Positions 179 through 22,579 of a stretch of DNA of 36,253 nucleotides are shown here, in pieces. A program made the translations under genes and the position numbers. This DNA comes from Gammaproteobacteria bacterium (GTDB lineage Bacteria > Pseudomonadota > Gammaproteobacteria > Pseudomonadales > Azotimanducaceae), in contig PBRC01000046.1 in assembly GCA_002725285.1 (NCBI GenBank), forward strand, positions 1-36,253. The letters run 5' to 3'. How positions within the stretch are numbered: the first letter of the stretch is position 1; every line of letters starts with the position of its first letter. Under the pieces are notes generated by a model. The model was given only the letters and a program-made list of their open reading frames with translations. It was not told where the DNA came from and did not search any database.

Positions 179-274
179 ATTGAAGACAGTGTAGATTCTA
201 ATCCGATGGTTGCAAGAGATAGCACCTCTTATACGCTACCCGAAAACGTTACCGTTATTGAGACGGAGGAGTGA
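2..274 (+). CDS. C-terminal end of a secreted/surface protein with Ca-binding thrombospondin type-3-like DxDxDG repeats (5' truncated by window edge)
   Basis: Frame is open to the window start; repeated TADTDDDGDGxxDDxD motifs; stop TGA at 272-274. Confidence 0.75.
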   Translation, partial: GMTADTDDDGDGVLDDADAYPTISVTGETDTDADGAPDACDSDCIATGMTADTDDDGDGIEDSVDSNPMVARDSTSYTLPENVTVIETEE

Positions 275-281
275 ATTAGAA

Positions 282-3200
282 ATGGGCAAAAGAAAATGGA
301 TAGTATTGTTCGCATCGCTTTTTTGCGCTACTTCGGTGTTTGGGACAGACTACGAGACGGACTCGCAGAACTTTTGGGTAACTGGCCAGGGCATTAACAG
401 CGCGTTGGGCTCAGTAAACAGAATGGTTTGTTATATGAAGAATATGCGGCCAGATGCCTTGCTGAACGACGGTGCGTACAAGGCGATTATCTACAAAGAA
501 GACTGCACGATGGGCAATGCCGATGCGAGCAGCGAGGAGTCTTCCGCGACGGCGACAAGCTCTCAGTCGTCGAGTACGGCTTCATCTTCGAGTAGTTCCG
601 ATGCAAAATCAAAAACTGCACAGACAGCCATCGTGAATGCCACGAAAGAAGGCGCAGACCTTCCGATGATCGGTAAAGTATGGGTTTCGATGATTGCACA
701 AGATCAGTACGACTTCGATAAGAAAGTGTATGTCCGGAGTGAACAAACAGCCAGCCCTACTGCTGACGCACCGTACGGTGATTTTGAGATGAGTTGGACC
801 ATATATTCAAACGAAGATAAAGAAATGCCTTGGGGGGAAGGAATTGTAGCAGGCATGGAATTAGGCAGGGGATATCTCACGGCCAGCGGCAGCAAAGTGG
901 GGTTTTTAGAGTTCTCGATGGGTGGCGAGGGCAATATCTCGGCTAACTTCGATCCGGATGGCAATGTGGAAGGCGTATATGCCGAGTTCATTTATGTTAT
1001 GCCTGAAGGGGGTGAAGAGGCTGGCCACAGCGACATCCTGGTGTACTATGAATTCGGGATGGACGCAGCGACAAAGGTTTATTGTCGGAACTTCCTCAGC
1101 GCGGACACAATGAGTTTCGATAGCTTTGACGAAGAAACAGGCGCGCCCGTTCGAGAGCCGTATCTGGAGGAAGATTGGAGCGATCAGGTGGCGGCAGCTA
1201 TTACGTCGGAAGAGGAGTGTTTTTCGGTGGACCGCTCAACGGCGATTCGCAACGTATACCGTTATGGCGTATACAATTCGGACGGATCTAGGGTGGAGAT
1301 GAGCAATCCCGGGTTTCCTATTCGCGCCGAGGTGACGCTGGAGACCGATGAAGATGAAGACGGCGTTCTAGATGTTGTGAACGTATTTGGCTATGCCGAC
1401 TATTGGGGTGTGTGGATCGACACCATAAACAGAGGACTTATTGATGGTGATACGGTATTCACGAAAGAAACATTTGGAAATCAGGAGGCGTCGTCAACGA
1501 CTTATCGGGTGAATCCGGTCACCGTACGAATGCAAAAAAGGGAAAAATCGTTCGTCACCCTCAACAGCTTAGATGGTTTATCGCTTGGGTTGTGGGTGGG
1601 TGACCAAGAGTGGTCAGAGCAATACGGGCTACTTGGTTTTACAGATTTAGTTACCTTTAACGAATATAAGGGCTCGTTTGATTCTGAGACGTGCAGCTTT
1701 ACGTTTACCCAAGGTGTGTCCTTCGCCGGAGGCTACACTGAGACGGACTTGGCGGACCCGGTGACAGTTACCTGCGCCAATTGGAAGCTACACATGAAGC
1801 GCATCTGGGACGAAGGGGAGGATTGGGCACATACTCAGAGGCGGGGGATGGGAGTTTGGTCGCAAGATACCAATCAGTGGTACGACATTAACCATACCAG
1901 CATGACCTATCCGGATACTCTTGCCCCAGTAGACGCCGATGGCCTGCCGATACTAGGCGATGATGGCACCACCCCGTTGAACTCAGGGATTATAGTTCAG
2001 ACTGAAACGTTTATTCCGCTTGATGCAGATGAACTAGCAGGTGGTCTCAACTGCATTGGGGACTGTCCGACCGCTGCAACGATGGAGACAACGTTTAACG
2101 CTGCTACGGTCCTGGCTGGGGTTGCTCAGAACGAACGTTTCAACGAAGATGGTAGCCCCATATATGTGCCAAGTCCCTTCGACCCGGCGGTAGGCTCGTT
2201 CATTAAGGAAGAAGTCACCGATCAGTGGGGCAATGTTTGGGAGGCCGGCCAATTTATGGATGGCGTCTTGGCGACCGATGTCGCGGAATACACTTTTACG
2301 GGTGGTAACGCGCTCGATTCTTCAGGCACCATACTGTCACTCGGGGAGACTTTCCTTGCATACAGCGCTGGCGTGCCCAATCCAGAAATGGCGCTACAGG
2401 GAATCAGTTACCAGACCTCGCAAGGGTGGACTAATGATGTTGGCTGGGGTGTGCGCAGCGGTATATTAGTGACTGACGCCGTTCTAGATTCGCCGGAAAT
2501 GGAATGTCGTAAGAGTGGAGGTGGTCTAGAGACGCCAAGCTATGATGACCATCCGTCGTATACCGGAGCTGACGAAACGGCACTTCGATTATGCGAATAT
2601 AATCTTTATGGCCCTGATGGTCCCGATACGACCTATCAACTGGTGTTTGAGGTACGTCCTCAGTACAAACTCACTGATCAAGACGACACTCTAATCACCT
2701 TCGGTCTACCCAAGAAGATGTACTACGATATTCCGGAGGATGCAACGCTTTACGGTGCTGACGCGGGAAAAAGAGTTTCATTAGACTATCAGGGACACGG
2801 CGAACTACACGGCATACCCGGGTATGTCCTTAACACAGCGACTGGGGAAAATATAGGTGAGTTCGTAAACGAGTGGCAAGACACGTATCGTTACATTCCT
2901 CGGTTTACGATTCCTGATGGCGGGGCACTTACCGGAAAAGATGCTGAAGGCGCTGACGTTTCTTACAAAGTAAAGGCTTTGGAGGGGGAAGAATGGTTGG
3001 CTTCAGCGGAAGGCTCGATAGGCAACCTGACCTATTCCGGGTCGGTTGACGAGCTTCTGACACCCACAGTATTGCGGAACAGAGGACCTGTTAATACTGA
3101 AATGGGGGAATATGAAAGAGATCCCCAGCTGGGGTTTTCCATAAACGCTATGCCGGCGGAGAATGATGGGGGCACCGCGACCCTCACCTTTACGGTCACC

Positions 3201-3758
3201 CAAGGAATAGACGCCACCCATGATTCGGGCGAGCGCAGGGTTGAGTCATCGATCGATTTGAACTGGGTGTCCGATGGATCGAGCTATGTGACCGTGACTG
3301 TCCCAGAACAGACCGCGACGCTGACGGTGTTAGACCCCTCGGGGGGTGCGGACGGGACTACCTTCGCCTTCGATTGGAACTTTGACATTGCCGCTCAGGA
3401 TTTCATTACCCTTTTGGACGGTATTGCGAGCCCTCCGAACGTGATAACGATCGAGATGTTGGACTTCCTGGAAATGAACGTCGAAAACACTGACACCATT
3501 TTTGTCTTCTTCGAACAATTCGTCCAAGCGAATACCGAGACTGACCGGGTAATAGGGTCTTACTTCCTGGACCTTTCGTTCAGCGATGATCTCGATATCA
3601 GCGTCTTGTCGGAAGTCGTTGTGGCGCTTGTGAAGGATGGAGAGCCGGAGCTAAGCTCTCTACTCACTGACTATATTGGTCCTGAACCGACGGAACTTCT
3701 GAATAATGGAGATCCATCTGTCGTACATGGGGAGATCATTTACGATCCGACACCCTGA
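282..3758 (+). CDS. Large secreted protein of unknown function (about 1158 aa) with signal peptide and Ser-rich low-complexity stretch
   Basis: The listed ORF starts at 210, but the internal ATG at 282 gives a signal peptide MGKRKWIVLFASLFCATSVFG and sits 7 nt after the upstream stop. Ser-rich tract SSEESSATATSSQSSSTASSSSSS. Confidence 0.8.
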   Translation: MGKRKWIVLFASLFCATSVFGTDYETDSQNFWVTGQGINSALGSVNRMVCYMKNMRPDALLNDGAYKAIIYKEDCTMGNADASSEESSATATSSQSSSTASSSSSSDAKSKTAQTAIVNATKEGADLPMIGKVWVSMIAQDQYDFDKKVYVRSEQTASPTADAPYGDFEMSWTIYSNEDKEMPWGEGIVAGMELGRGYLTASGSKVGFLEFSMGGEGNISANFDPDGNVEGVYAEFIYVMPEGGEEAGHSDILVYYEFGMDAATKVYCRNFLSADTMSFDSFDEETGAPVREPYLEEDWSDQVAAAITSEEECFSVDRSTAIRNVYRYGVYNSDGSRVEMSNPGFPIRAEVTLETDEDEDGVLDVVNVFGYADYWGVWIDTINRGLIDGDTVFTKETFGNQEASSTTYRVNPVTVRMQKREKSFVTLNSLDGLSLGLWVGDQEWSEQYGLLGFTDLVTFNEYKGSFDSETCSFTFTQGVSFAGGYTETDLADPVTVTCANWKLHMKRIWDEGEDWAHTQRRGMGVWSQDTNQWYDINHTSMTYPDTLAPVDADGLPILGDDGTTPLNSGIIVQTETFIPLDADELAGGLNCIGDCPTAATMETTFNAATVLAGVAQNERFNEDGSPIYVPSPFDPAVGSFIKEEVTDQWGNVWEAGQFMDGVLATDVAEYTFTGGNALDSSGTILSLGETFLAYSAGVPNPEMALQGISYQTSQGWTNDVGWGVRSGILVTDAVLDSPEMECRKSGGGLETPSYDDHPSYTGADETALRLCEYNLYGPDGPDTTYQLVFEVRPQYKLTDQDDTLITFGLPKKMYYDIPEDATLYGADAGKRVSLDYQGHGELHGIPGYVLNTATGENIGEFVNEWQDTYRYIPRFTIPDGGALTGKDAEGADVSYKVKALEGEEWLASAEGSIGNLTYSGSVDELLTPTVLRNRGPVNTEMGEYERDPQLGFSINAMPAENDGGTATLTFTVTQGIDATHDSGERRVESSIDLNWVSDGSSYVTVTVPEQTATLTVLDPSGGADGTTFAFDWNFDIAAQDFITLLDGIASPPNVITIEMLDFLEMNVENTDTIFVFFEQFVQANTETDRVIGSYFLDLSFSDDLDISVLSEVVVALVKDGEPELSSLLTDYIGPEPTELLNNGDPSVVHGEIIYDPTP

Positions 3759-7774: not shown

Positions 7775-10213
7775 ATGTTACTAAAACCTTATCGCGTTCT
7801 GGACCTGACCAGTCGGCACGGTATGTTATGCGCGCAGATTCTTGGCGATCTGGGTGCAGATGTCATTCAGATCGAACCACCCGGTGGCGCGGCAGGAAGA
7901 GAGCAGGGTCCTTTCTTTGAAGGACGGGTCGACCCGGAGTTTTCGTTGAATTGGTGGGGATATGCGCGAGGTAAACGCAGCATCGAATTGGACATTGATG
8001 CCGAAAGAGAGGTCTTTCTGCGTCTTGTCGCGCGTGCTGATTTCCTCGTTGAGTCTGAGCCGGTTGGCAGCCTTGTGGCACGGGGTATAGGTCACGATGT
8101 GCTGGCTCAACATAATCCCGCCCTGATTCATGTCTCGATGACACCCTTCGGTAGCAGTGGTCCCAAGGCCGGTTGGGCAGCAACTGATCTGACCCTGTTG
8201 GCCAGTGCAGGTCCGCTGGCACTTACAGGTGATGATGATCGCCCGCCTGTGCGTGTTTCTGTGGATCAGGCATGGAATCATGTCGCTGCAGAAGGGGCAG
8301 CGGGTGCGCTGGTGGCGCTGCACGATAGAGCCGGTTCTGGTCTGGGGCAGCATGTAGAGGTGTCAGTACAACAGGCGCTTACCATAGCGACTCAGGGGTA
8401 TGTTCTATCAGCAGCGGTGAATGAGGAGACCGCGACACGGACCGCAGGTGGTATGAAAGCGGGTGATCTGATGATTCGTCTGACCTTCCCAGCCAAAGAC
8501 GGGCAGGTTTCCATCACTTTATTGTTCGGCGCCACAATTGGACCCGCCACCAGGCGCCTGATGGAATATGTCTGTGAGCAGGGTTTCTGTGATGAGGCAA
8601 CCCGCGATAAAGACTGGCTTGAATACGGGTTGTTAATCACCAACGGCGATGAGCCAATGTCAGAATGGGAGCGGGTCAAGGATTGTGTCGCTGCATGCAC
8701 TGCCTCAAAAACCAAAGCCGAACTCCTTGAGGTCGCGATGCAGCGTCGCCTGCTGCTGGCACCCATGTCGACGGTAGCTGATGTCGTCGATAGTGAACAG
8801 TTTGCCAGTCGTCAGTATTTTAGATGTCCGGACGGCGATGGACCCTCAGCATCAGTCAACTACCCTGGTGCGTTTGCAAAGTTCAGTGAAACGCCCTTTC
8901 AGGCAGGTCGCAGGCCACCGCGTGTCGGTGAACATTCGTCAGAGGTTTTGGCTGAGCTTGCCAGTGTGCCCCCGATTTCTCTTCCAGGCGTTGAAAGCAA
9001 GGCTGGTGAATTGCCGCTTAAAGGTGTCAAGGTGCTGGATTTGATGTGGGCTCTGGCAGGTCCCGCTGCGACCAGAATGCTGGCGGATTATGGTGCGACG
9101 GTCGTACGAGTTGAATCCACTTCGCGGCTTGATGTTTGCCGGACGATCCGCCCTTTTATCGACAGTGATGAGTCGCCAGAGAAATCCGCAATCTTCCATA
9201 GCACCAATGCCGGGAAATGCATGTTAACGGTTGACCTGACGAAACCTGAAGGGCGTGAAGTTATCCTTGATCTTGTTCGCTGGGCTGATGTTGTAGCGGA
9301 ATCATTCTCTCCCAGAGCAATGCAGGGACTGGGTCTCGATTATGCCACTCTGCGAAAGGTCAATTCGAAGATCATTATGTTAAGCACGTGTTTAATGGGT
9401 CAGACCGGACCGCTTTCCATGTTTGCCGGTTACGGTAATCTTTCTGCGGCTATCTCGGGATTCTATGAGATCACGGGATGGCCGGATCGAGAACCCGCTG
9501 GTCCCTTTGGCGCCTATACTGATTACATTGCACCTCGGTTCAATGCTGCCGCAATACTGGCTGCGTTGGATTATCGCAAGCGCACAGGCAAGGGTCAGTA
9601 CATCGACCTGGCTCAGAGCGAGGCAGCGTTACACTTTCTGACGCCAGCAATTCTTGATTACACTGCAAACAATGTTATTCAGTCGCGAAGAGGTAATCGG
9701 GACCCTCATGCTGCTCCACACGGCGTATATGCTACATCCGGTCAAGATAATCGTATTGCCATTGGCTGTGAAACCGAGGTGCACTGGCAGGCGCTATGCA
9801 GTGTGTTGACTTGTCTTGATGTAAATGATGCTCGCTTCAAAGATCTGAACGCAAGACTGACCAATGAGGATGAACTGGATTCCCTGGTTGCTGCCGCGAT
9901 AGCTGATCTCGACGCAACAGATCTGGAAACTGCATTACAATCCGTCGGTGTGCCCGCTTCAGTCGTACTCAACAGCCCCGAGTTGTGGCTAGATCCACAA
10001 CTTGCTCACCAGGGGCATTTCATCAGACTGCCACATCCGGAAGGAGGTGAAACGGTAATTGAAGCCTCACGGATCCACCTGTCACGTTCAGCGACCTTTG
10101 TTGATTCGAGTGCACCGACATTTTCGAGAGATATGGCTGATGTACTGAATAATCTGCTGGGATACGATGATGAGAAGTTCGGTCAGTTACTTGTTGCCGG
10201 CGCTCTTGAGTAG
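7775..10213 (+). CDS. Fused two-domain CaiB/BaiF (family III) CoA-transferase, about 812 aa
   Basis: AAGGAG Shine-Dalgarno at 7762 and ATG at 7775. Two N-terminal signatures: VLDLTSRHGMLCAQILGDLGADVIQIEPPGG and VLDLMWALAGPAATRMLADYGATVVRVEST. GLGQHVEVSVQQA and GKGQYIDLAQSEA motifs. Confidence 0.93.
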   Translation: MLLKPYRVLDLTSRHGMLCAQILGDLGADVIQIEPPGGAAGREQGPFFEGRVDPEFSLNWWGYARGKRSIELDIDAEREVFLRLVARADFLVESEPVGSLVARGIGHDVLAQHNPALIHVSMTPFGSSGPKAGWAATDLTLLASAGPLALTGDDDRPPVRVSVDQAWNHVAAEGAAGALVALHDRAGSGLGQHVEVSVQQALTIATQGYVLSAAVNEETATRTAGGMKAGDLMIRLTFPAKDGQVSITLLFGATIGPATRRLMEYVCEQGFCDEATRDKDWLEYGLLITNGDEPMSEWERVKDCVAACTASKTKAELLEVAMQRRLLLAPMSTVADVVDSEQFASRQYFRCPDGDGPSASVNYPGAFAKFSETPFQAGRRPPRVGEHSSEVLAELASVPPISLPGVESKAGELPLKGVKVLDLMWALAGPAATRMLADYGATVVRVESTSRLDVCRTIRPFIDSDESPEKSAIFHSTNAGKCMLTVDLTKPEGREVILDLVRWADVVAESFSPRAMQGLGLDYATLRKVNSKIIMLSTCLMGQTGPLSMFAGYGNLSAAISGFYEITGWPDREPAGPFGAYTDYIAPRFNAAAILAALDYRKRTGKGQYIDLAQSEAALHFLTPAILDYTANNVIQSRRGNRDPHAAPHGVYATSGQDNRIAIGCETEVHWQALCSVLTCLDVNDARFKDLNARLTNEDELDSLVAAAIADLDATDLETALQSVGVPASVVLNSPELWLDPQLAHQGHFIRLPHPEGGETVIEASRIHLSRSATFVDSSAPTFSRDMADVLNNLLGYDDEKFGQLLVAGALE

Positions 10214-10237
10214 GTACTGGCATAGAAGAGTCATGAA

Positions 10238-11350
10238 ATGAGTTCGGCACTAAGCGGATTACGCGTTATAGATATCAGCGGAACGGTTGCCACCAGCTAT
10301 TGCGCGAAACTCTTCACTGACTATGGTGCAGAGGTCATCAACCTCGAACCTGGAGAAGGATTTCAGACCCGACGCTTGCATCCTTTCCTTGAGCACACGT
10401 CTGAGGCTGACAAGAGTGCAATGCACGCTTATCTGAGTACCAACAAGCTGAGTCTCAACAGGGAACAGCTGAGCCACAGTAAACTCACCAGTCTGATCAA
10501 GAGTGCCGATCTGATCCTGGATGATGGTACTGAAACTGAATTAACGTCGTACAGCAGAAATGTCCGGGCCAGTATTAGCTGGTACGGCAGAACAGGTGAA
10601 TATGCTGATTTTACAGGTTCGGATGCTCAGTGCTTTGCATTGAATGGCATGTTGCGAAGTATCGGTCGGGTAGAGGGACCACCACTTATCCCTACCGGCT
10701 ACCAGGCGCAGATCGTTGGCGGGCTGTCTGCATTTATTGGTGCAATGGTCCATGTGCTTGCGGCTGAATTGGGCAACAGACAGGAATTGGTAGAACTTGA
10801 AACCAGCATCTTTGAGGCTTGCCTGTGTTTTACAGATGTTGGTGCTGTCAGCTCTCACAATACCAATATTGAAGTACCTCGCCTTGGTATCAACCGTTTT
10901 CCCCCGACCTACCCACTCGGTATATTCCCCTGCCGGGATGGTTGGATTGGATTGACTGTACTGACACCGTCACAGTGGGATGCGTTCTGCAAGATTCTTG
11001 AGATCGATGAGTATGCTGATGTCGAGCTTTTCCAGACAGCCGTGGGTCGTCTGCAGTCAATTGATATCCTGGAACCGATCATCATGGAAAAGTTGCTTGA
11101 GCACTCGGCTGAAGAACTCTTCTACCGCGGTCAGGAAAATGCGGTGCCCTTAGCCAGGGTACCGACCATGGAGGAACTGTTCGGGGTTGATCAGTTTGTG
11201 CACCGCCATGCCTTTGCACAGGCCAGTCTGCCCGATAACAGGAAGCTGCAGGTACCGACCGTGCCGTTTCGATTGTATGCCACACCGCCATCATTTGGCG
11301 GTACGGTCGCATCGCTGGGAGCACACACCGGGGAATTTGCGAATGTCTGA
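10238..11350 (+). CDS. CaiB/BaiF CoA-transferase family protein (single divergent domain, lacks catalytic Asp)
   Basis: LRVIDISGTVATSYCAKLFTDYGAEVINLEPGEGF; C-terminal PTVPFRLYATPPSFGGTVASLGAHTGE. Confidence 0.88.
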   Translation: MSSALSGLRVIDISGTVATSYCAKLFTDYGAEVINLEPGEGFQTRRLHPFLEHTSEADKSAMHAYLSTNKLSLNREQLSHSKLTSLIKSADLILDDGTETELTSYSRNVRASISWYGRTGEYADFTGSDAQCFALNGMLRSIGRVEGPPLIPTGYQAQIVGGLSAFIGAMVHVLAAELGNRQELVELETSIFEACLCFTDVGAVSSHNTNIEVPRLGINRFPPTYPLGIFPCRDGWIGLTVLTPSQWDAFCKILEIDEYADVELFQTAVGRLQSIDILEPIIMEKLLEHSAEELFYRGQENAVPLARVPTMEELFGVDQFVHRHAFAQASLPDNRKLQVPTVPFRLYATPPSFGGTVASLGAHTGEFANV

Positions 11351-12593
11351 TACCCGCACGCCTGGCATGGCACCACTTAAAGGGGTACGTATTGTTGATC
11401 TGTGCATGGGTTGGGCAGGACCACTCGCCACCAGGCATATGGCTGACATGGGTGCCGATGTCATTAAGGTTGAGAGTTGTGAGCGGTTCGACTGGTGGCG
11501 GAGTTGGGAGGCGACACCTGAGTGGATTGAAGACGATGGTGCGGAGAAGTCAGTGGCATTCAATACCGTAAACCGTAACAAGCGCGACATAACGCTGGAT
11601 CTTGAACATCCGGAAGGCAGACAACTGCTGCTTCAACTCGTTGGTACAGCCAACGCGGTCGTGGAGAACTACTCCGGGGGGGTCTTGCCAAAATTGAACC
11701 TCGGTTTCGAGGAGTTTAAACAGGCGAAAGAAGATATCATTCTCCTGTCAATGCCCGCATTTGGCTCAAATGGACCCTGGAAGAATTTCCGCGCTTATGG
11801 CTCAACTGTTGAGCAGGCCTCGGGATTGCCACACCTGAATGGTGAAAGCGATGATCCACCCACAATGCACCACGTGGCTTATGGTGATGCTAACGGTGGA
11901 TTGAATGGGGCTGCTGCACTGCTCGTTGCACTTCGTCACCAGAATCGCACAGGTGAAGGTCAGTTCGTTGATTTGTCCCAGGTTGAGTCGATGTTTGCAC
12001 TGGCAGTTCATGGCATCCTTGAATATGCGGCAACAGAGACTGCTCCCGCCAGAACCGGTAATGCCTCGCAATCAATGGCTCCCCACGGTACATATCCGTG
12101 CAAAGAGGAAGACAGCTGGGTTGTGATCCAGATTATGGATGAGAACCAATGGCAAAGACTCCAGCAACTTGTGGGAAATCCTCTGCAGCAGTTTGGTGTG
12201 CTTGCCGACCGAATCAAAAAGCGTGAACGACTTGACCAGACGATTTCAATATGGACGCAGGATCAGGATGCCCGGGAACTCATGTTCAGGTTGCAACAAA
12301 GTGGCGTTCCTGCCGCAGCGACTCATACTTCAGCAGGTCTGCTTGGTGATGAGCATCTGAGATCTCGTGGCTATTGGCAGTGGCTGGAACGGGCTGTGGT
12401 TGGCAGGCAACCGAATCCTTCTCCCCCTTACAGGCAAGGCCCCGATCCCTACGCAATTTCTTCTCCTGCACCGACGCTGGGACAACACAATGAAGAGGTA
12501 CTGGGAGATATTCTCGGACTGGATGCGAGTGAGCTGGCACGCCTGGAGGCCATGGGTATTATTGGGAAACGACCCCGAATGCGAACCGGTTGA
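11343..12593 (+). CDS. CaiB/BaiF CoA-transferase (catalytic Asp present)
   Basis: VRIVDLCMGWAGPLATRHMADMGADVIKVES; AYGDANGGLNG; GEGQFVDLSQVES; APHGTYPC. ATG at 11343 overlaps the previous stop by 8 nt; the listed ORF start at 11187 is over-extended. Confidence 0.92.
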   Translation: MSDTRTPGMAPLKGVRIVDLCMGWAGPLATRHMADMGADVIKVESCERFDWWRSWEATPEWIEDDGAEKSVAFNTVNRNKRDITLDLEHPEGRQLLLQLVGTANAVVENYSGGVLPKLNLGFEEFKQAKEDIILLSMPAFGSNGPWKNFRAYGSTVEQASGLPHLNGESDDPPTMHHVAYGDANGGLNGAAALLVALRHQNRTGEGQFVDLSQVESMFALAVHGILEYAATETAPARTGNASQSMAPHGTYPCKEEDSWVVIQIMDENQWQRLQQLVGNPLQQFGVLADRIKKRERLDQTISIWTQDQDARELMFRLQQSGVPAAATHTSAGLLGDEHLRSRGYWQWLERAVVGRQPNPSPPYRQGPDPYAISSPAPTLGQHNEEVLGDILGLDASELARLEAMGIIGKRPRMRTG

Positions 12594-12749
12594 TTCTGGA
12601 GACGCCACAGCCATGGAAAGGATATTTCTTGAGACTAAGTGAATCAGGTATATTCGTACTGTTTTATTACCCCAATCGTATTTGCCTGAACGGCGTGATG
12701 GAATCGGACAGCCGAACTACAAATTGAGATAAAGGAGCCAGGAGAATTT

Positions 12750-12776
12750 ATGACTCAGCTGACATTTTCTTGCTGA
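12750..12776 (+). CDS. Candidate 8-aa leader peptide MTQLTFSC
   Basis: ggag at 12741-12744 spaced 5 nt from ATG; TGA at 12774-12776; not in frame with the CDS at 12799. Confidence 0.3.
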   Translation: MTQLTFSC

Positions 12777-12798
12777 TTTTCGACAGGAATCAGAAAAC

Positions 12799-14055
12799 AT
12801 GCCCGGCCCCTTAAGTCACATTAAAGTCCTGGAAATGACACTCGCCATCCAGGGTCCTGCGGCGGGAGTTTATCTTCGTGATATGGGTGCAGATGTTATC
12901 AAGGTGGAACCCCCGCTGGGAGATGCAAGCCGGTACAGTCGAGGGATCAACAATGACCTGCCTTTGGAAGCACCTGGTTCGCAGTTTGTTTCCATGAACA
13001 GAGGTAAGAAATCCGTATGTCTGGATGCCCATACACCACTCGGTCTGGAGGCAGTCAAGGCAATGCTTAAAGAGGCAGATATTTTCCTGAGTAATTATCG
13101 TGCCCCTGCACTTGAAAAAATGGGACTCGATTACGAATCAGTCAGATCTCTGAACCCGAAACTCATTTACGCGACCGCCAGTGGTTTCGGTCCTATCGGA
13201 CCCGATAAGAATAAACCCATGCTGGACGGTGCTGCTATTGCTCGTGGTGGCCTGGCCAGCGTGACGGGGATGAGGGGAGATGGACCCATTATCCCGGGAG
13301 CGATGATTGCCGATGGTGCCGGAGGGATGCAGCTCTCTCTCGGAATTGTCACGGCCCTTGCCGCTCGCGAACATACTGGCCTGGGCCAGTGGGTGCAAAC
13401 CTCTGCATTAGGGGCGCAATTGTCGATACAGAGTTGGGAGCTTTGCCATGTCTGGATGACAGGTAAACAGTTAAAAAGAAGCGGCGCTCATTACACCAAT
13501 GTCTACGCGCCCTACGGTATCTACGAGACTGCCGATGGGGGGCACTTCCTGCTTGCGGTGGCAATGACAAATGAAGCCTGGGACGCATTCTGGGTTTTCG
13601 CGGATAACCCGATCGAAGCGATAAATCCGACCTGGGACACTCCAAGTAAGCGATTTGGGGCAGGCGCGACAGAGGAAGATGCGATGTTGATCCAGGAGAA
13701 GATGCGAACTGCTTTTAAGAACAGGACCACAGCTGAATGGGAAGAATTCCTGGCAACCCAGCACGAGATGATTTACCAACGGATACAGAACTATGATGAG
13801 GTTCGAACCGATGCGCAGATCCTCGCCAACAGTTACGTTGAGACGATTGAGGTGAAAAACATTGGCGAGACATCAGTGGTTGGCAATCTCATATCGTTCA
13901 GCGGAACCCCGGCTTCCATCAAGGGACCACCCCCGGATCTTGGTGCAGACACAGAATCAGTACTGATCGAGCTTGGCTTCACTGATGAAGAAATTAAGTC
14001 GCTAATAGATCATGCCGATAGCGAAAGACGACGTGAATTGGCAAAGCGGTCTTGA
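12799..14055 (+). CDS. CaiB/BaiF CoA-transferase (stand-alone, catalytic Asp present)
   Basis: IKVLEMTLAIQGPAAGVYLRDMGADVIKVEPPLGD; MIADGAGGMQLSLG; GLGQWVQTSALGA. Confidence 0.93.
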   Translation: MPGPLSHIKVLEMTLAIQGPAAGVYLRDMGADVIKVEPPLGDASRYSRGINNDLPLEAPGSQFVSMNRGKKSVCLDAHTPLGLEAVKAMLKEADIFLSNYRAPALEKMGLDYESVRSLNPKLIYATASGFGPIGPDKNKPMLDGAAIARGGLASVTGMRGDGPIIPGAMIADGAGGMQLSLGIVTALAAREHTGLGQWVQTSALGAQLSIQSWELCHVWMTGKQLKRSGAHYTNVYAPYGIYETADGGHFLLAVAMTNEAWDAFWVFADNPIEAINPTWDTPSKRFGAGATEEDAMLIQEKMRTAFKNRTTAEWEEFLATQHEMIYQRIQNYDEVRTDAQILANSYVETIEVKNIGETSVVGNLISFSGTPASIKGPPPDLGADTESVLIELGFTDEEIKSLIDHADSERRRELAKRS

Positions 14056-14062
14056 GTAGGGA

Positions 14063-16474
14063 TTACCTGGCGGCCATAGGCACGGTGCCGACGACATCAT
14101 CAATGACAAGTTCAACGATCTCCTCGGCGCTCAGCCCGGCGACTTCTGTTAACACTTCTTCGATATGTTCGCCAAGTAATGGTGCACGCCGACCTTGAAC
14201 AGATTCAGCAAAACGATATCGATAGGGTTGATTGGGGTAGTGTTTGATGCCAATGCCTGGACGATCCTGGGCAATGAAGCTACCCCGGGCAGCAAGCTGA
14301 GGATCGTCGAGCAACTCAGGTCCACGCATGACGGCGCCAGCCGGGACTCCCTTGCGCTGCAATCGTTTCATAAGCTCTAAATGATTTTGCGATCTCGTCC
14401 AGCTGGTAATGGCGTTATCAATTTCGTGTTGGTGTTTGCGACGATCTGCCGGTTGGTAGCTGCTCATATTGTTTGGGATGCCAATCTCTGCGCACAGGGC
14501 TTGCCAGTGTTCGTCCGTTTTGCAGGTGATACCGATCCAGGTATCTTCAGCACACTGGTAGATACCCTGGGGGGAGTAGTTGCGGTGAAGGTTGCCAGTC
14601 CGGCCAGGATCATCCCTGGCCAGCGACCAACCTGTCATTACATCACCTACATAAAGATTGCAGGCCTCCAGCTGGCTTAAATTAACGTATTGACCCTCTC
14701 CGGTTGAATGCCTGTGATGCAGAGCCGCGATCAAAGCGTTTGCCCCCATCACACCGGCGAATAGGTCGCCGCCGGTCATGCCGGTAAACAGGGGTTCACC
14801 ATCTTCGTATCCTGTTAAATGAGAAATGCCGGACATCTGCTCGGTTGACATCCCGAAAGCCACATAGTCCCGCCATGAGGTTTCCTGGCCGAATCCAGAC
14901 AGAGAGATCATAATAAGTCCGGGGTTGATTTCTCTCAGTACCTCATATGACAGGCCAAAGTTCTTCATCACCCTGGGTGTGTAGTTTTCAATCAATACAT
15001 CGACACTGCCAACCATTGCCTTGATTGCATCTCGGCCACGCGGGTCTTTTAAGTTGAGTGTGACAGCACGCTTACCTCGATTAACCCAGTTGAAGTAGGG
15101 TGAAGCTTCCCAACTTGGTACGCCCTCCTGGCCTCCTGCCGTGCCAGAACCTCGCCAGCCGTCGATGTGTTGAACCGATTCAACCTTGATCACCTCGGCA
15201 CCGGCATCTGCGGCAATTTGTGCTGCAACGGGACCGGCAAAAAACATTGACAGATCCAGTATTCGGATCCCGTGAAGGGGTGCTGTGGGCTTACTTGCGG
15301 TCTTACTGTCCTCTGTTTCTTCAGCGTCGAGTTCTGCAAAAACCTCTTCATTATGTTCGCCCAGCAGGGGAGGTCTGTAGGGTTTTGGCGTTGTCACTGT
15401 CGATTTAAACGGGATGCCTGGAACATCTACAGCACCTGCTTCCGGGTGATCAAGGGTGATGAAATACTTCCTCTCTAGATGGGGTTCCAATTCAAAGATC
15501 TCTTTCATGCTGGGGATCAGTCCAAAAGGCACCCGGGCAGCCTCAGCCTCGTGAAAAAGCTGTGTGGCAGTTTTTCCTTTTAATGCTTCAGCGAAAGCGA
15601 CCCGTACTTCCTCGATTTTCTCGCTGGGATTGGTCCATGAAAGACCCTGGTATCGGGGATTAGCCGCAATATCACCCCGGTTGAGAAAATCACAGAGCAG
15701 TTGCCACTGAGCCAGGGTCAGTGCATTCAGACCGATATAGCCTTCTTCGGTCGGCAGAATGAAAGCAGCCCCGGCGCCTGAACCGATACTTGAATATCTG
15801 CCGGGGGTTATGCCGAGATATTCATAGAGGAGAGTGGGTAGCTGCGCTCCTGTCAGCACCGCCTCCTGTGCACTCACATCGATATGCTCACCATTTCCAT
15901 GATGGGCACGACCAAAGGCTGCCATTGATGTGGCAACGGCCGCAAAGGCCCCGGTCAGTGTTTCAGCAATCGCACCCCCTGCCTGTAGTGGTTCCCGATC
16001 TGGTGTTCCGCACAAGTTCGCCCAGCCACCGACCGCACAGGCAATCAGATGTGAGGACTCGTAATCTGAATGAGGACCAAAGGAACCAAAGCCCGAAATC
16101 GTCGTCAGGATGCAGGCGGGATTCCACTTCTTGAAACTCTCGTAGCCCAGCCCCTTTCTGTCCAGTGATTCAATAGTTTCGGATGCAATAACGATATCGT
16201 AGCGGGCGACGAGTCTGCTGAGCTGCTTGTGACCGTCCTCCGTTGTGAGATCCAGCACGATACTTCGTTTACTGGTATTCAGAAAAAAGAAAGATGCGCT
16301 GGCTTCAGGATTGCTGATGCCACCCGGGAACGGGCCCTGACGACGCGTTTCGTCTCCTTCCGGACTTTCAACTTTTACCACGCTTGCGCCAAGATCACCC
16401 AGCAGCTTCGAACAGAAGGGTCCTGCAGTTCCTGTGGAAATGTCGAGTATTTTAAGATGGCTCAACGGCTGCAT
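14063..16474 (-). CDS. Fused two-domain CaiB/BaiF (family III) CoA-transferase, about 803 aa
   Basis: Start at MQPLSHLKILDISTGTAGPFCSKLLGDLGASVVKVESPEG (the listed ORF start at 16597 is over-extended); second domain IRILDLSMFFAGPVAAQIAADAGAEVIKVESVQ; GEGQYVNLSQLEA. Confidence 0.93.
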   Translation of the reverse strand: MQPLSHLKILDISTGTAGPFCSKLLGDLGASVVKVESPEGDETRRQGPFPGGISNPEASASFFFLNTSKRSIVLDLTTEDGHKQLSRLVARYDIVIASETIESLDRKGLGYESFKKWNPACILTTISGFGSFGPHSDYESSHLIACAVGGWANLCGTPDREPLQAGGAIAETLTGAFAAVATSMAAFGRAHHGNGEHIDVSAQEAVLTGAQLPTLLYEYLGITPGRYSSIGSGAGAAFILPTEEGYIGLNALTLAQWQLLCDFLNRGDIAANPRYQGLSWTNPSEKIEEVRVAFAEALKGKTATQLFHEAEAARVPFGLIPSMKEIFELEPHLERKYFITLDHPEAGAVDVPGIPFKSTVTTPKPYRPPLLGEHNEEVFAELDAEETEDSKTASKPTAPLHGIRILDLSMFFAGPVAAQIAADAGAEVIKVESVQHIDGWRGSGTAGGQEGVPSWEASPYFNWVNRGKRAVTLNLKDPRGRDAIKAMVGSVDVLIENYTPRVMKNFGLSYEVLREINPGLIMISLSGFGQETSWRDYVAFGMSTEQMSGISHLTGYEDGEPLFTGMTGGDLFAGVMGANALIAALHHRHSTGEGQYVNLSQLEACNLYVGDVMTGWSLARDDPGRTGNLHRNYSPQGIYQCAEDTWIGITCKTDEHWQALCAEIGIPNNMSSYQPADRRKHQHEIDNAITSWTRSQNHLELMKRLQRKGVPAGAVMRGPELLDDPQLAARGSFIAQDRPGIGIKHYPNQPYRYRFAESVQGRRAPLLGEHIEEVLTEVAGLSAEEIVELVIDDVVGTVPMAAR

Positions 16475-16502
16475 GGGTTGGCCCTCTTTCTCACTTATAG
16501 TC

Positions 16503-17438
16503 TCACTTATGGTTTCCAACCATTTCCTGGGTAAAAACTTTAGGTACAGGCACTGGCACGATGCCGTCAACACCCAGACGTAGTAATCTCGGGGCAAGTA
16601 TGTTCAACTCCGATTCCCTGATAACAACAGAGACACTTCGCCAGGATTTGTCCACCACGGGGCTGACCGTTGGTGAAACTACCGCAGGCAGTAGTTGTTC
16701 CACTTCAAGCAGGACGCTGGTTGGCACGTCCATAAAGACCATATAGACAGGTTCCTTCTCGGCACTTAACACGGCATTGATGCAGATGCACAGATCTTCG
16801 ATTTTTTCCCGTCTGGGTGGATCAGCCACTGCATCGTTGTTGGCGATGAGTTGCGGATTGGATGTAAAGATCTCCGCAATGAGATTGTTTCCATTGGCTC
16901 TCAGTGTTTCGCCGGTTTCGGTGATATCGGTAAATGCGTCAGATTCTCCCATGACTACCTTGGCTTCAGTCTTGCCTTCCGAGTGAAGAATCTCGATGTC
17001 TTCAATGCCGTAGAGTTCTTTCATTCTGCGACGGGTCAGGTTGGGTAATTCGGTGGCGATGATCTTGCCCTCACAGTCTTCAGGCTTTTCTATGCCATTC
17101 TCAGGACGCGAGGCCAGGACGACTCGGGATGGTTGATTAGTGCGTTTTGAGAAGATGAAGTCGCCGATAACTTCAACCTCAGACTCCAGCCCGGCTTCAA
17201 AGATGTAGTCTTTGCCGGTGATGCCGCAGTCAACGATTCCTTTACTGACTTTATCGGCCATCTCTTTTCGATCCAGTATCCTGAATACGACAGATTGATC
17301 GAAGGGTGTTGTGAGTTCGTACTGCCGACTCTTTGTTAAGGGGTATCCGGCCTTGTCCAGAATCCTGAGTACCTGGTCGTAAAGACTACCGGATGGAATA
17401 CCGAAATATAGAGCACCTTTTTGTTTGCCAAAGTTCAT
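16503..17438 (-). CDS. hisG: ATP phosphoribosyltransferase, long form with C-terminal regulatory-type domain
   Basis: GIPSGSLYDQVLRILDKAGYPL; KGIVDCGITGKDYIFE; TELPNLTRRRMKELYGI; SDAFTDITETGETLRANG (PRPP-binding type motif); C-terminal LLPAVVSPTVSPVVDKSWRSVSVVI...LGVDGIVPVPVPKVF. Confidence 0.9.
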   Translation of the reverse strand: MNFGKQKGALYFGIPSGSLYDQVLRILDKAGYPLTKSRQYELTTPFDQSVVFRILDRKEMADKVSKGIVDCGITGKDYIFEAGLESEVEVIGDFIFSKRTNQPSRVVLASRPENGIEKPEDCEGKIIATELPNLTRRRMKELYGIEDIEILHSEGKTEAKVVMGESDAFTDITETGETLRANGNNLIAEIFTSNPQLIANNDAVADPPRREKIEDLCICINAVLSAEKEPVYMVFMDVPTSVLLEVEQLLPAVVSPTVSPVVDKSWRSVSVVIRESELNILAPRLLRLGVDGIVPVPVPKVFTQEMVGNHK

Positions 17439-17616
17439 TTTTACTTACCTGTTTCAATCCATGCCTGTCAGAAACGGAGGTGGGTAACTACCATGCCAAT
17501 GGTGGCTGTCTCTCGCACCTCTAATTAAGCCGCTATTCTAAACCATCCGGCTTACAATTCCTGTAATGTTGTTGCAAAGCGGTGACCGGCTAATATGTGA
17601 TGCAGGGCCCCATCGT

Positions 17617-18378
17617 CTATTTGTTGGGCCATTCGACCTTCCGTTTCTCCAGAAAAGCCTTGCTCCCTTCTTTGCGATCCTCGGAATTCATCACCCGGGT
17701 TTGTACATAATCGGTAATGTGATCGACTGCTGCATAATCGAGCGAAGAAGCACGAATCATGGATTCCTTCATGCCTTGTACAGCAACGGGGCTGAGCTCG
17801 CAAAAACGTTCAGCAATCTTTTCAGCTTCTGCCATTAGCTGATCGTCCGGAACGATTTTGTTTATCATGCCAACATCGTAGGCTCTCTTTGCGCTTACAC
17901 GCTCTGCCAGAAGGAGTAATTCTGAAGCGATCGCCCAGGGCATGATTTTTGGAAACCATGCGCAGGGAATAGTCGCAATACCCCATTGTGGTTCCGGTAA
18001 CCAGAAGGAGGTATCTTCCGTTGCAATCCTGATGTCGGTATCAAGGGCGATCCACAGACCATAGCCAACCACGTGACTGTGAAGGGCGGCGATAATGGGT
18101 TTATAGACTTTCTGTGTCTGACTGATATCAGGGAATTCACCGGTGTATGTATAAGTCTCCGGAGCACCGCCTGACAAGTCTGCACCAGCACTGAAGCATC
18201 GACCCTTGCCGGAGAGTATCGCTACTCTGAGATCATCGTCATCACGAAAGTCAGCCCAGGCTTCACCCAATTCTCGGTGCATGACATCATTCATGGCATT
18301 GAGTTTGTCAGTCCGGTCAAGGGTGACGTAAGCGACCTGACCTCTCTTTTCGTAAATAATCGTTTCCATATTTGCCAT
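17617..18378 (-). CDS. Enoyl-CoA hydratase/isomerase family protein
   Basis: VTLDRTDKLNAMND; GKGRCFSAGADLSG; KPIIAALHSHVVGYGLWIALDTDIRIAT; WLPEPQWGI. Confidence 0.92.
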   Translation of the reverse strand: MANMETIIYEKRGQVAYVTLDRTDKLNAMNDVMHRELGEAWADFRDDDDLRVAILSGKGRCFSAGADLSGGAPETYTYTGEFPDISQTQKVYKPIIAALHSHVVGYGLWIALDTDIRIATEDTSFWLPEPQWGIATIPCAWFPKIMPWAIASELLLLAERVSAKRAYDVGMINKIVPDDQLMAEAEKIAERFCELSPVAVQGMKESMIRASSLDYAAVDHITDYVQTRVMNSEDRKEGSKAFLEKRKVEWPNK

Positions 18379-18699
18379 CTCGAATATGTGATTTCCCTAG
18401 TCTATCAACATAAAAAAGAAAAAGGGGCAGACTGACACACCTGACTCTGGCAGCTGGCTAGATTCGTTTTATACTCAAGCACCCGTCAGATCACCAGGGT
18501 GTCTAAAGGTCGATGAAGATCGATCGAATCTATACGTTTAGTCCAAACGAAGCAGATGACAGAGTCTTCACCTGCAAATGTGGGCCTGAAGCCAGAACTC
18601 AACTTCGTCAGACCTGCAACACGCAATGAGAAAACTGTCAGTGAGTTCTCCAGCACGTCAGGATAGAGCAAACAATGAGAAGTTGAAGCAATCCCGCAT

Positions 18700-19983
18700 T
18701 CATTGATGCGAATTGTCCAGCCTGGCTTTAATGAGTTGAGGTTGAGTGATTAGAATCATGCCGACGACGGTCACCGTGAGTGCCGCCAGAATGGGAAACA
18801 ACACCGGCAGAGTGAGCCACTGACCGAGAATGGCGACTGGCATTGTCATCAGCTGAGCAAAGCCCATATTGAGCTGAAGGATACTCATGATTCGACCTCG
18901 TACCTCGTTGGGCACAATGTGTTGTATGAGAATGGTGCTGGACACCGTCGTGATGGTAACGCCTGCGCCAAGTCCCAGATTGCCGATGACTGCGTTGACT
19001 ACCTTGTGATCGATCACGAATATCATGAATGACAGGCTGAACAAAATAGCCCCTCCTGCAATCAGAGCACCCCGGCGCTCAACTGAAGAAAAGTATGTCA
19101 GAAGTAGTGCAGCAATTAGCGAACCGATACCCCAATTCATGGCCACGATACCAACATGTGAGATTTTGACGCCAACCACCGTGGTGAGCCAGGTAGGACC
19201 CAGATTCGCCGTTGCTGGAAATCCAAGCCCCATCATGCAGACCAGCAACATAATGGTCCAAAAAACAACTGAATGATGGCGTGCATACTTCAGTCCGTAC
19301 CTGACGTCTTTGATCGTATCCATGAAACCGTAGCTGTTTCTCTCGAGGTTGTTTTCCCTTTTAGTTGACCGGTGTGTCATCAGTGCAAGACATACGATCA
19401 TGATGAGATTGCCGATGACGCTGAACAGATAGGCCCCACTGAATCCAAGACCTTCGATGATAAAACCGGTCCCAAAAAGAGCGACTGGCATGGCAAGCTG
19501 ACCAGCGACCTGATTGAGTGAAAGTCCTGCTGGAGTGAGTGATGGGCCCAGAATGTCTGGTACAAGCGCCAGTCGGGTCGGCGCATCGATGCTATGCAGA
19601 CCCGCAGAAATAAAGGTCACAGCAAAAAACAATATGAAGGTCAGGGCACTGCCATCGGAGAAATAGAGCACCGCTGAGATCACGAGTGTTGTCAGTATCA
19701 ATAGGATCTGGGTGACGAGCAGCAACCACCGGCGATCGAAACGATCCGCCAGAGCGCCTCCGTATAAACCAAATGTAAGTGCACCAACGCCACGACTTGC
19801 ACCAATCAGTGCGACCAGGATCAGCCAGACATTTTTTGGTGCATATTCCTGCACCCAGAGGATCTGAGTGAAGAATTGCAGGGGCATCAGCATCTGGCCC
19901 ATGGCGAACCCAACGATCAGCAGACGGAAGTCCCGATTGTAGAGTGGTGCAATACCTCTTGATTTAGTACTGGTCGAATTCAC
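18700..19983 (-). CDS. MFS transporter (MFS_3/EntS-like exporter type)
   Basis: Multiple hydrophobic helices; LYGGALADRFDRRWLLLVTQ; SMLQ-type IVPNEVRGRIMSILQL motif. Confidence 0.9.
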   Translation of the reverse strand: MNSTSTKSRGIAPLYNRDFRLLIVGFAMGQMLMPLQFFTQILWVQEYAPKNVWLILVALIGASRGVGALTFGLYGGALADRFDRRWLLLVTQILLILTTLVISAVLYFSDGSALTFILFFAVTFISAGLHSIDAPTRLALVPDILGPSLTPAGLSLNQVAGQLAMPVALFGTGFIIEGLGFSGAYLFSVIGNLIMIVCLALMTHRSTKRENNLERNSYGFMDTIKDVRYGLKYARHHSVVFWTIMLLVCMMGLGFPATANLGPTWLTTVVGVKISHVGIVAMNWGIGSLIAALLLTYFSSVERRGALIAGGAILFSLSFMIFVIDHKVVNAVIGNLGLGAGVTITTVSSTILIQHIVPNEVRGRIMSILQLNMGFAQLMTMPVAILGQWLTLPVLFPILAALTVTVVGMILITQPQLIKARLDNSHQ

Positions 19984-20117
19984 TACAGTATTCTATTCCC
20001 TGAACTTAAATGAGACAGCCTTTTAGCGTCGGCCCTGTTCAACGTCAGCCTGGTTTTTCTTTCACCGCAGGCCATGCATCGAAGCGTGACCGTTAAGGTG
20101 TATCAACTGGTTTGCTT

Positions 20118-21353
20118 CTAAGAAAGATCTCTCAGCGATGCCATGATTTCTTCGGTGTGTTCACCCAGGTGTGGGGCACGACGACTGATCGACCAGGGAT
20201 TCAGCGGCAAATTATAGGGTGCACCGGGGTAGGTAAGTGTCCTTCCGAGATCGTCATGGTCTACCTCAACGGGGAATCCGCGTTCCTTGAAATGCTCATC
20301 TTCAAATGCTTCTTCCGGGGAATAGATTACCCCGACGGATAAACCTGCTCTTTGACAACCCGTAAAGAATTCATAGGCGCTGACAGAAGCGGCGATGAGC
20401 AGCAGGGCTTCTCGACCCGCCATAAATATTGCAGTAATCGTTTCATCCTCGCCGATTCTGGAGAGATCAAATGGTCCATCCCAGGCTGCTCCCATCTCCA
20501 GAAAAACCGCCTCAGGAAAATCTTCTGCAAGACCTGTTTCAGTCATCCAGGTTATTAACTTCTGAAATTCTGCAGGAAAGCGCGGTGGTACACCTGTGTT
20601 GACATAGCGACCGTCAGCACACAATACCTGACTTTCAGCAGTCATCACGATTTGGGCATGGCGACCTGTCTGGCGTTGTACTGTAGATTGATTCACCAGC
20701 CAGGAATAGCTGGCAGCCTCAGTCGTGACATTCAGGGCTGCAGTAATGGAGACGTCAATAAATTGCCCAATCCCCGAGATATTCCGATGAAGCAGGGCTG
20801 TCAGGATAGACATGAAGGCATAATGACACCCCGTCTGGAATCCCTGGTTACCCCAGCCACGAACTGGTGGAAGTGAGTGATCGTCGTATCCGCAGCTCCA
20901 GGGTGGACCTCCAGCCGCCATTAAAGTGAGATCTGTGGCCGGTAAATCGCTTGAAGGTTCATTCCGACCATAAGGCGTGACCGCAACATGGATGAGGTTG
21001 GGTTGGATTTTAACAAGGTCTGCATAATCAAGTGAAAGATCTGCCAGACGGGTGATTGGTTCTGATTCAATGAGTACATCGGCTGTTTTGATTAGATTAC
21101 AAAATACTGACTGACCGTTTGTAGAATCCAGATCCAGTACGACACTTCGTTTACTGGTGTTGTAGTGCATGAAATGCAGGCTGCGGTTGTCACCCGGTTC
21201 ATCATCTACAAAAGGTGGGAAACTCCTGCTCGGGTCACCGCTTGTGGGTTCAATCAGAATAACATCGGCACCCATATCACCCAGTAGTTTTCCAGCCATT
21301 GCGATCTTTTCACTGGCGATCTCGATTACCCGAATACCATCAAGTGCACTCAT
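20118..21353 (-). CDS. CaiB/BaiF CoA-transferase family protein (lacks catalytic Asp)
   Basis: IRVIEIASEKIAMAGKLLGDMGADVILIEPTSGDPSRSFPPF; GIGQFIDVSITAA; RRAPHLGEHTEEIM. Confidence 0.9.
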   Translation of the reverse strand: MSALDGIRVIEIASEKIAMAGKLLGDMGADVILIEPTSGDPSRSFPPFVDDEPGDNRSLHFMHYNTSKRSVVLDLDSTNGQSVFCNLIKTADVLIESEPITRLADLSLDYADLVKIQPNLIHVAVTPYGRNEPSSDLPATDLTLMAAGGPPWSCGYDDHSLPPVRGWGNQGFQTGCHYAFMSILTALLHRNISGIGQFIDVSITAALNVTTEAASYSWLVNQSTVQRQTGRHAQIVMTAESQVLCADGRYVNTGVPPRFPAEFQKLITWMTETGLAEDFPEAVFLEMGAAWDGPFDLSRIGEDETITAIFMAGREALLLIAASVSAYEFFTGCQRAGLSVGVIYSPEEAFEDEHFKERGFPVEVDHDDLGRTLTYPGAPYNLPLNPWSISRRAPHLGEHTEEIMASLRDLS

Positions 21354-22579
21354 ATAACACCTTCCTCACGCAACTTAACAACCTCGCCTGAGGTCATTCC
21401 CAGAAGTTCAACAAGCACCTCCTCAGTGTGTTCGCTGAGGCAGGGTCCCCCGGCGGTCATTTCCCAGTCGGTCTCTGAGAAATGCACTGGCAGACCGTCA
21501 ACCCTGACATCACCCATCTCTGAATGAGTCACGGTTGGCCAGAGAGCAAAGTTCCCGGTGGTAGGGTCATGGTCGATTCGCTCTCCGGGTTTTTGCACGG
21601 CAGCCACTGGTATGCTTAGCTGACGTAAACGATCCTGCAGGTCGAATTTTTCCTTCTGCTTCGTCCAGTTTTCAATACTTTCATCCAACTCATCTTGGCG
21701 ATCGAGTCTGTTTTCCAGGCTTGAATAGTCACCACACCAGACTTCATTTATGAAAGATGCCAGCACCTGCCAGTCATTGTCATCACGGCAGGCAATGGCA
21801 ATCCACTCATCGTCGCCAGAGCATGGATACATCCCATGAGGTGCCATGAGCGAATACTGACTGCGATTGGAACTGAACCCGTCTGGTTGCCGCATGGGGC
21901 GATTATTTACCGTCCAGTCCAGTAATGCCGGACCGTTTAAACTTAGGCCTGCTTCAGTACAGGCAAGGTCCACCCACTGACCTTCACCACTTTTGTCGCG
22001 TTCCAGCAGCGCCAGCATAATTGCCATTGCCATGTAGTAACCACCGGTATGATCCATGTAAGAATATCCCCAGCCAGCAGGTGGTTGTCCCGGTAGTGCC
22101 GATGAGAAGGTCAGCCCGGACACGGCCTGCACAATGGGGCCCCAGGTTTTAAATGAGCTATAGGGGCCCTTGTGACCAAAACCGCAATTTGAAACATAGA
22201 CAATGTCAGGTTTGATGGCTTTCAGCGACTCGTAACCGAATCCCCACTTGTTGAGCACCCCCTCAGCAAAATTCTCAGTCACGGCGTCTGATATTTTAAT
22301 AAGCTCAGTCAGAATCTCCTTACCTTTACTAGTTCGGAGATTCAAAGTGATGCCCTTTTTATTGGTATTGTGGTTGTTGAATGCACCGCCCATGTCTATG
22401 CCGCGTCGGTCATCAATAAATGGTCCCGTACCTCGCAGAATATCCCAGCGTCCCTGCTTTACCGGATCTTCGATCCTGATGACGTTTGCACCAAAAGCAG
22501 CAAGCCATTTGGTTGCCCCTGCCCCTGCCAGTTGCCCGGTGAAATCACATATTCGAAAATGTGAGAGTGCGCCTGTCAT
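21350..22579 (-). CDS. CaiB/BaiF CoA-transferase (catalytic Asp present)
   Basis: FRICDFTGQLAGAGATKWLAAFGANVIRIEDPV; YSYMDHTGGYYMAMAIMLALLERDKSGEGQWVDLACTEA; stop overlaps the next gene start (ATGA). Confidence 0.92.
   Translation of the reverse strand: MTGALSHFRICDFTGQLAGAGATKWLAAFGANVIRIEDPVKQGRWDILRGTGPFIDDRRGIDMGGAFNNHNTNKKGITLNLRTSKGKEILTELIKISDAVTENFAEGVLNKWGFGYESLKAIKPDIVYVSNCGFGHKGPYSSFKTWGPIVQAVSGLTFSSALPGQPPAGWGYSYMDHTGGYYMAMAIMLALLERDKSGEGQWVDLACTEAGLSLNGPALLDWTVNNRPMRQPDGFSSNRSQYSLMAPHGMYPCSGDDEWIAIACRDDNDWQVLASFINEVWCGDYSSLENRLDRQDELDESIENWTKQKEKFDLQDRLRQLSIPVAAVQKPGERIDHDPTTGNFALWPTVTHSEMGDVRVDGLPVHFSETDWEMTAGGPCLSEHTEEVLVELLGMTSGEVVKLREEGVI

Follow-up and report, generated by a model that had tools for sequence, protein, structure and literature searches.

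Four probable hetero-paired family III CoA-transferases of the BbsEF type, clustered in an Azotimanducaceae genome

The window, i.e. the whole stretch of 36,253 nucleotides that was analysed (contig PBRC01000046.1), holds nine family III CoA-transferase (CaiB/BaiF) domains, all of which exceed the gathering score of the Pfam model PF02515. Two genes are fusions of two domains, the others encode one domain each, and the residue at the position of the catalytic nucleophile divides the domains into those with Asp and those without it (Asp-less). The genes and the decisive codons are as follows.

7775..10213, plus strand: fused two-domain family III CoA-transferase 7775, matching PF02515 twice
8273-8275, plus strand: codon TGG, Trp167 of the Asp-less N-domain of 7775 (codon read)
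9521-9523, plus strand: codon GAT, Asp583 of the catalytic C-domain of 7775 (codon read)
10238..11350, plus strand: Asp-less partner gene 10238, Gln at codon 10709-10711, CAG (codon, alignment, tree)
11343..12593, plus strand: catalytic partner gene 11343, Asp at codon 11886-11888, GAT (codon, alignment, tree)
12799..14055, plus strand: unpaired single-domain family III CoA-transferase 12799, Asp at codon 13312-13314, GAT (codon, alignment, trees)
14063..16474, minus strand: fused two-domain CoA-transferase 14063 (PF02515, alignment, tree, codons)
15964-15962, minus strand: codon GAA, Glu of the Asp-less N-domain of 14063 (codon read)
14767-14765, minus strand: codon GAC, Asp of the C-domain of 14063 (codon read)
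20118..21353, minus strand: Asp-less partner gene 20118, Phe at codon 20840-20838, TTC (codon, alignment, orthologues)
21350..22579, minus strand: catalytic partner gene 21350, Asp at codon 22054-22052, GAT (codon, alignment, orthologues)

All nine residues that an earlier note on this DNA had assigned to the position (W, D, Q, D, D, E, D, D and F) were read back from their codons, and the spacing of +9 from a conserved Pro, which it had described as free of gaps, is exact in every domain. In a MAFFT alignment of the genome's PF02515 domains with five PDB chains, this column is where SUGCT, YfdE, 4ED9 and BbsF have their Asp and BbsE its Tyr171, so that its identification as the nucleophile position of the family holds. 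Neither the alignment nor the codons place an Asp there in the W, Q, E and F domains, and eight of the nine domains do form four adjacent or fused pairs of one Asp-less and one Asp-bearing member, as had been proposed. The motif (A/S)P(H/Q)G(x)Y is likewise restricted as described: all four catalytic partners have it (APHGVY, APHGTY, SPQGIY and APHGMY), and none of the Asp-less domains does; its counterpart in the singleton 12799, which the trees place outside both paired clades, is APYGIY. The genes of the split pairs overlap: the start of 11343 overlaps the stop of 10238, and 21350, which lies upstream of 20118, shares 4 bases with it. For 14063 the ATG at 16474 is the probable start; the open frame itself begins earlier, with a TTG at 16597, and overlaps the upstream gene.

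The orthologue of 7775 in a genome of the same family is 70% identical and keeps the W/D combination, and Asp583 is invariant across 46 fusions. The orthologue of 14063 at L161 is 64% identical and keeps E/D, with Glu at the N-domain column also in relatives down to 36% identity, and the orthologues of 20118 have Phe or Tyr.

The CoA-transferase genes are surrounded by an acyl-CoA ligase, enoyl-CoA hydratases, an HsaA-like monooxygenase, an SDR and an enolase-family gene, which suggests a context of cyclic or aromatic acid catabolism. The pairs travel without most of these neighbours: in those loci of relatives that were compared, only the CoA-transferases and one enoyl-CoA hydratase match at 45% identity or more. 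Inside this catabolic cluster and directly upstream of the fused gene 14063 lies a long-form HisG (ATP phosphoribosyltransferase; 16503-17438, minus strand), the only full hisG match in the assembly, where a further fragment of 42 positions occurs on C42; hisG is not adjacent to the 14063 orthologue at L161. Near the beginning of the window, an open frame of 1182 amino acids (210-3758, plus strand) looks secreted and has no Pfam match at 1e-5.

The association between an Asp-less and an Asp-bearing domain extends to the entire genome. Its domains were collected by the Pfam model and thus form an unselected sample: 80 contigs with 3.8 Mb contain 54 matches to PF02515, and the nucleophile column is readable in 53 of them. 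The RpoB of this genome has its highest scores against PDB chains of gammaproteobacteria, so that the organism probably belongs to that class. Fifteen of the 53 domains are Asp-less, and all 15 adjoin or are fused to an Asp-bearing PF02515 domain on the same strand, whereas only 18 of the 38 Asp-bearing domains have a PF02515 domain beside them in this way (Fisher p=2.8e-4). Asp is present in all 20 isolated domains; no Asp-less domain stands alone. The genome holds 14 such pairs, one of them with Asp in both halves. Two CoA-transferase places in it, C40:90399-91190 and C40:105995-107062, contain an internal stop (TAG and TGA, respectively) and are pseudogenes or assembly errors.

Beyond this genome, GTDB was scanned with an alignment of four close Asp-less/Asp-bearing fusions, an alignment of eight sequences being too divergent as a seed; the resulting 80 loci are consequently not a blind sample. 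The pairs obtained from GTDB come from seven phyla (Chloroflexota, Actinomycetota, Pseudomonadota, Binatota, Acidobacteriota, Myxococcota and Thermodesulfobacteriota). Together, the genome, the GTDB loci and BbsEF contain 57 pairs with halves in both of the clades described below, of which 53 are Asp-less/Asp and four Asp/Asp, and a further 22 pairs, taken from relatives within the same order or closer still, obey the rule without exception (22/22). Thus, in all 79 pairs the catalytic partner has the Asp, and the other half has it in four (4/79). The Asp-less domain comes first in every Asp-less/Asp-bearing fusion surveyed, those of the window's own genome included; among split pairs both gene orders occur. 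The four Asp-bearing members of the partner clade are C10:87409, L068, L069 and L077; these exceptions speak against the rule and possibly represent a regain of Asp or pairs with two sites. The first of them (C10:87409-88398, L032) belongs to the degenerate clade, comes from the window's own genome, has Asp at the nucleophile column and lies beside an Asp-bearing partner.

The phylogeny that the earlier note had suggested as a test came out in favour of its proposal. In a tree of the genome's own domains, built with the nucleophile column removed, the Asp-less domains, with two exceptions treated below and with the four of the window among them, form one clade with BbsE (SH-aLRT 98; 100 in a FastTree of 189 domains), and the Asp-bearing partners form another with BbsF (99 in both trees). 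The two clades may be sisters (support 56). Gene 10238, despite its weak similarity to the PDB chains, belongs to the BbsE-like clade, where it groups with the N-domains of Bradyrhizobium fusions; 11343 belongs to the BbsF-like clade and has BbsF as its best PDB match (9fn0_B, E 9e-60). Separately built trees of the two partners mirror each other across 57 pairs (Mantel r=0.785) and across the 14 pairs of the window's own genome (r=0.811; p<=0.0002 in both cases). Since those 14 pairs are all paralogous within one genome, species history cannot explain the mirroring. Two clades, mirrored trees and genome-wide pairing support the idea of a radiation of hetero-paired CoA-transferases, and pairing with one dead domain is a real, ancient design. 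No description of the co-diversification of the two halves was found in the literature searched, of which subscription papers make up only a minor part.

BbsEF is the benzylsuccinate CoA-transferase of toluene degradation. The precedent that the earlier note had seen in it, Asp in one subunit only, is correct: like the pairs of the window it is made up of a family III chain with the nucleophile, Asp178 of BbsF, and a second family III chain, BbsE, that has Tyr171 in its place, and the structure 9FOL is titled as the D178-CoA adduct of BbsEF, Asp178 being also the BbsF residue that aligns with the nucleophile column. The proposed single-chain AlphaFold2 model of the fusion 7775, calculated from an alignment of 46 fusions after a four-sequence input had been discarded (pLDDT 51.7), is a single confident unit, with pLDDT 93.6 and pTM 0.95 over 812 residues. 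It predicts with confidence how the two domains are placed relative to each other in one chain; from the family fold they would also be expected to interlock. The best fold match of the model is BbsEF, with a TM-score of 0.97 by target length (9FN0 chain D), and BbsEF is likewise the best PDB match by sequence. The window domains share the BbsE and BbsF clades, respectively, but the identity between the window pairs and BbsEF is about 32%, two of the pairs (7775 and 14063) are fused, unlike the split BbsEF, and no toluene-pathway genes were recognised among the neighbours in the window, so that the substrate of the window pairs may differ from that of BbsEF.

Three other groups of enzymes are instructive for comparison, the first two being fused precedents that the earlier note did not name. 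First, in PtmU4 two domains are fused in tandem and the conserved catalytic Asp is confined to the C-terminal one; mutagenesis supports the role of that Asp (PMC6006322). The fusions 7775 and 14063 have the same layout, whereas 10238/11343 and 21350/20118 are split genes, the latter in reverse order; PtmU4 makes thiocarboxylic acids. Second, DddD, a DMSP CoA-transferase/lyase, is a fused precedent for which a position outside all other two-domain enzymes, as their outgroup, has been described, and it implies no lyase role for the window pairs; in SAR202, CaiB/BaiF proteins are known to have expanded, and some of these are closest to DddD (PMC5395668). Third, the homodimeric FRC, YfdW, YfdE, SUGCT and CaiB match the catalytic domains of the window in fold and in the nucleophile column, but consist of identical chains with Asp on both, and in the window only 12799 resembles this type.

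Taken together, the four pairs of the window are very probably hetero-paired (pseudo-heterodimeric) family III CoA-transferases of the BbsEF type, in which the Asp-less half would be a structural partner and probably a determinant of specificity. This reading rests on the residue pattern, the pairing rule, the clades, the mirrored trees, the similar constraint on both halves and the fold of 7775, and from it we infer that the two halves interlock, that each pair has a single live site and that the partner tunes specificity. The Asp-less domain would be an ancient duplicate that has lost the Asp and kept the fold and the Arg and Lys of the CoA site, and its small domain would help to wall the live active site. 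The mechanism through an Asp anhydride and an aspartyl-CoA thioester is established for family III. In the pairs, a mixed anhydride would accordingly arise when the catalytic Asp attacks the donor acyl-CoA; CoA would then form the aspartyl-CoA thioester and finally pass to the acceptor acid, presumably in order to charge carboxylic acids for a catabolism of the beta-oxidation type.

One aspect of the pairs does not fit easily into this picture. In the YfdE homodimer, the Asp and the GNxH loop that faces it come from different subunits (PMC3720670). Across the 79 pairs, the Asp (100%) is kept on the catalytic chain together with residues of the loop (N226 85%, P233 94%, W243 91%), and the partner chain retains N226 in 11%, P233 in 44% and W243 in 22%. 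This conservation of Asp and loop on the same chain is left unexplained by a simple interlocked heterodimer: in a plain N:C arrangement the Asp would face the variable loop of the partner, and the conserved loop would face the Asp-less pocket. Either the partner loop would set specificity and the second pocket be non-catalytic, or the catalytic chains would pair together. The latter possibility, a segregated packing of C with C and N with N in an alpha2beta2 complex or in a dimer of fusions, with live sites built by catalytic chains only and the partner as a scaffold, would account for both elements being kept on one chain and lost from the other. In addition, 9FN0 contains chains A, B and D at the least and 9FOL includes A, C and D, so that each entry has some chain in multiple copies. 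However, the pTM of 0.95 over both domains in the single-chain model of 7775 favours pairing of N and C within the chain, and we regard the segregated arrangement as unlikely. As with co-diversification, no description of this loop puzzle was found in the literature searched, to which subscription papers contribute only a minor part.

The hetero-paired reading with one live site has also to be weighed against the idea that the Asp-less domains are enzymes in their own right, acting through another residue such as Glu or through a chemistry without a covalent adduct. The Glu of 14063, shared with its distant relatives, would agree with this. However, the nucleophile column, which never varies in the catalytic clade (zero entropy), contains 13 residue types in the partner clade and is more variable there than 87% of columns, with aromatic residues frequent in the BbsE-like part. 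Over the 79 pairs, the partner domains keep R41 (94%) and K66 (95%), which are CoA contacts in FRC, and they mostly lack N95 (kept in 9%), P16 (16%) and the GN loop (3%), companions of the nucleophile in the active site. No D or E is conserved within 8 columns of the nucleophile position in the Asp-less domains, and a shifted acid nearby was rejected as the nucleophile. Furthermore, changing Asp430 of PtmU4 to Glu, Ala or Asn cuts activity 125-400-fold (PMC6006322). An independent activity of the Asp-less domains is therefore very improbable.

The earlier note had named unrelated losses of Asp, without pairwise association, as the result that would speak against its proposal. For the four pairs of the window this is rejected on the clade support of 98-100 and the mirrored trees, and we consider it highly improbable as an explanation. 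What stands is that Asp was lost more than once in the family as a whole: the Asp-less domains C51:116222 (Ile) and C9:52176 (Glu) lie outside the BbsE-like clade, and a single clade of all Asp-less domains is rejected (AU p=6e-7). C51:116222-121114 (L049) holds two fused CoA-transferases in convergent, tail-to-tail orientation. One of them (Ile/Asp) is very divergent and lies outside the BbsE and BbsF clades, and the paired design may have originated independently in it; a plasmid search with it matched only records named CoA transferase or without a name. At C9:50953-53351 (L055), tandem Asp-bearing and Glu-bearing copies, in this order and outside the paired clades, apparently reflect a separate loss of Asp.

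Although the nucleophile and several active-site residues are gone, decay of the Asp-less domains into functionless duplicates is rejected and has next to no probability, since the Asp-less halves of orthologous pairs are conserved similarly to the Asp-bearing ones (71.8/71.4, 62/69 and 70/69; ranges of 62-72% vs 65-71% identity), which places the partner under real constraint, and since pairing persists in seven phyla and in the 22 pairs from relatives.

The four pairs of the window are further examples of a design known from BbsEF; what is new is the evidence for co-diversification and the loop puzzle. A possible answer to the latter, which we put forward tentatively, is that the degenerate partner enables the radiation: with the Asp and the facing loop on different chains, the partner loop would be free to adapt to new acids without any change in the catalytic chain. 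The conserved loop of the latter would then lie over an Asp-less pocket, a dedicated non-catalytic site to which CoA or another ligand still binds but where no chemistry takes place. On a broader scale, isolated precedents such as BbsEF and the PtmU4 type are joined into one pattern of dead duplicates and live partners that have diversified together in at least seven phyla. Many genes that carry no other annotation than 'CoA transferase' can thereby be recognised as halves of a single enzyme, a simple rule is gained for telling which half is catalytic, and the possibility that the dead half sets substrate specificity becomes testable.
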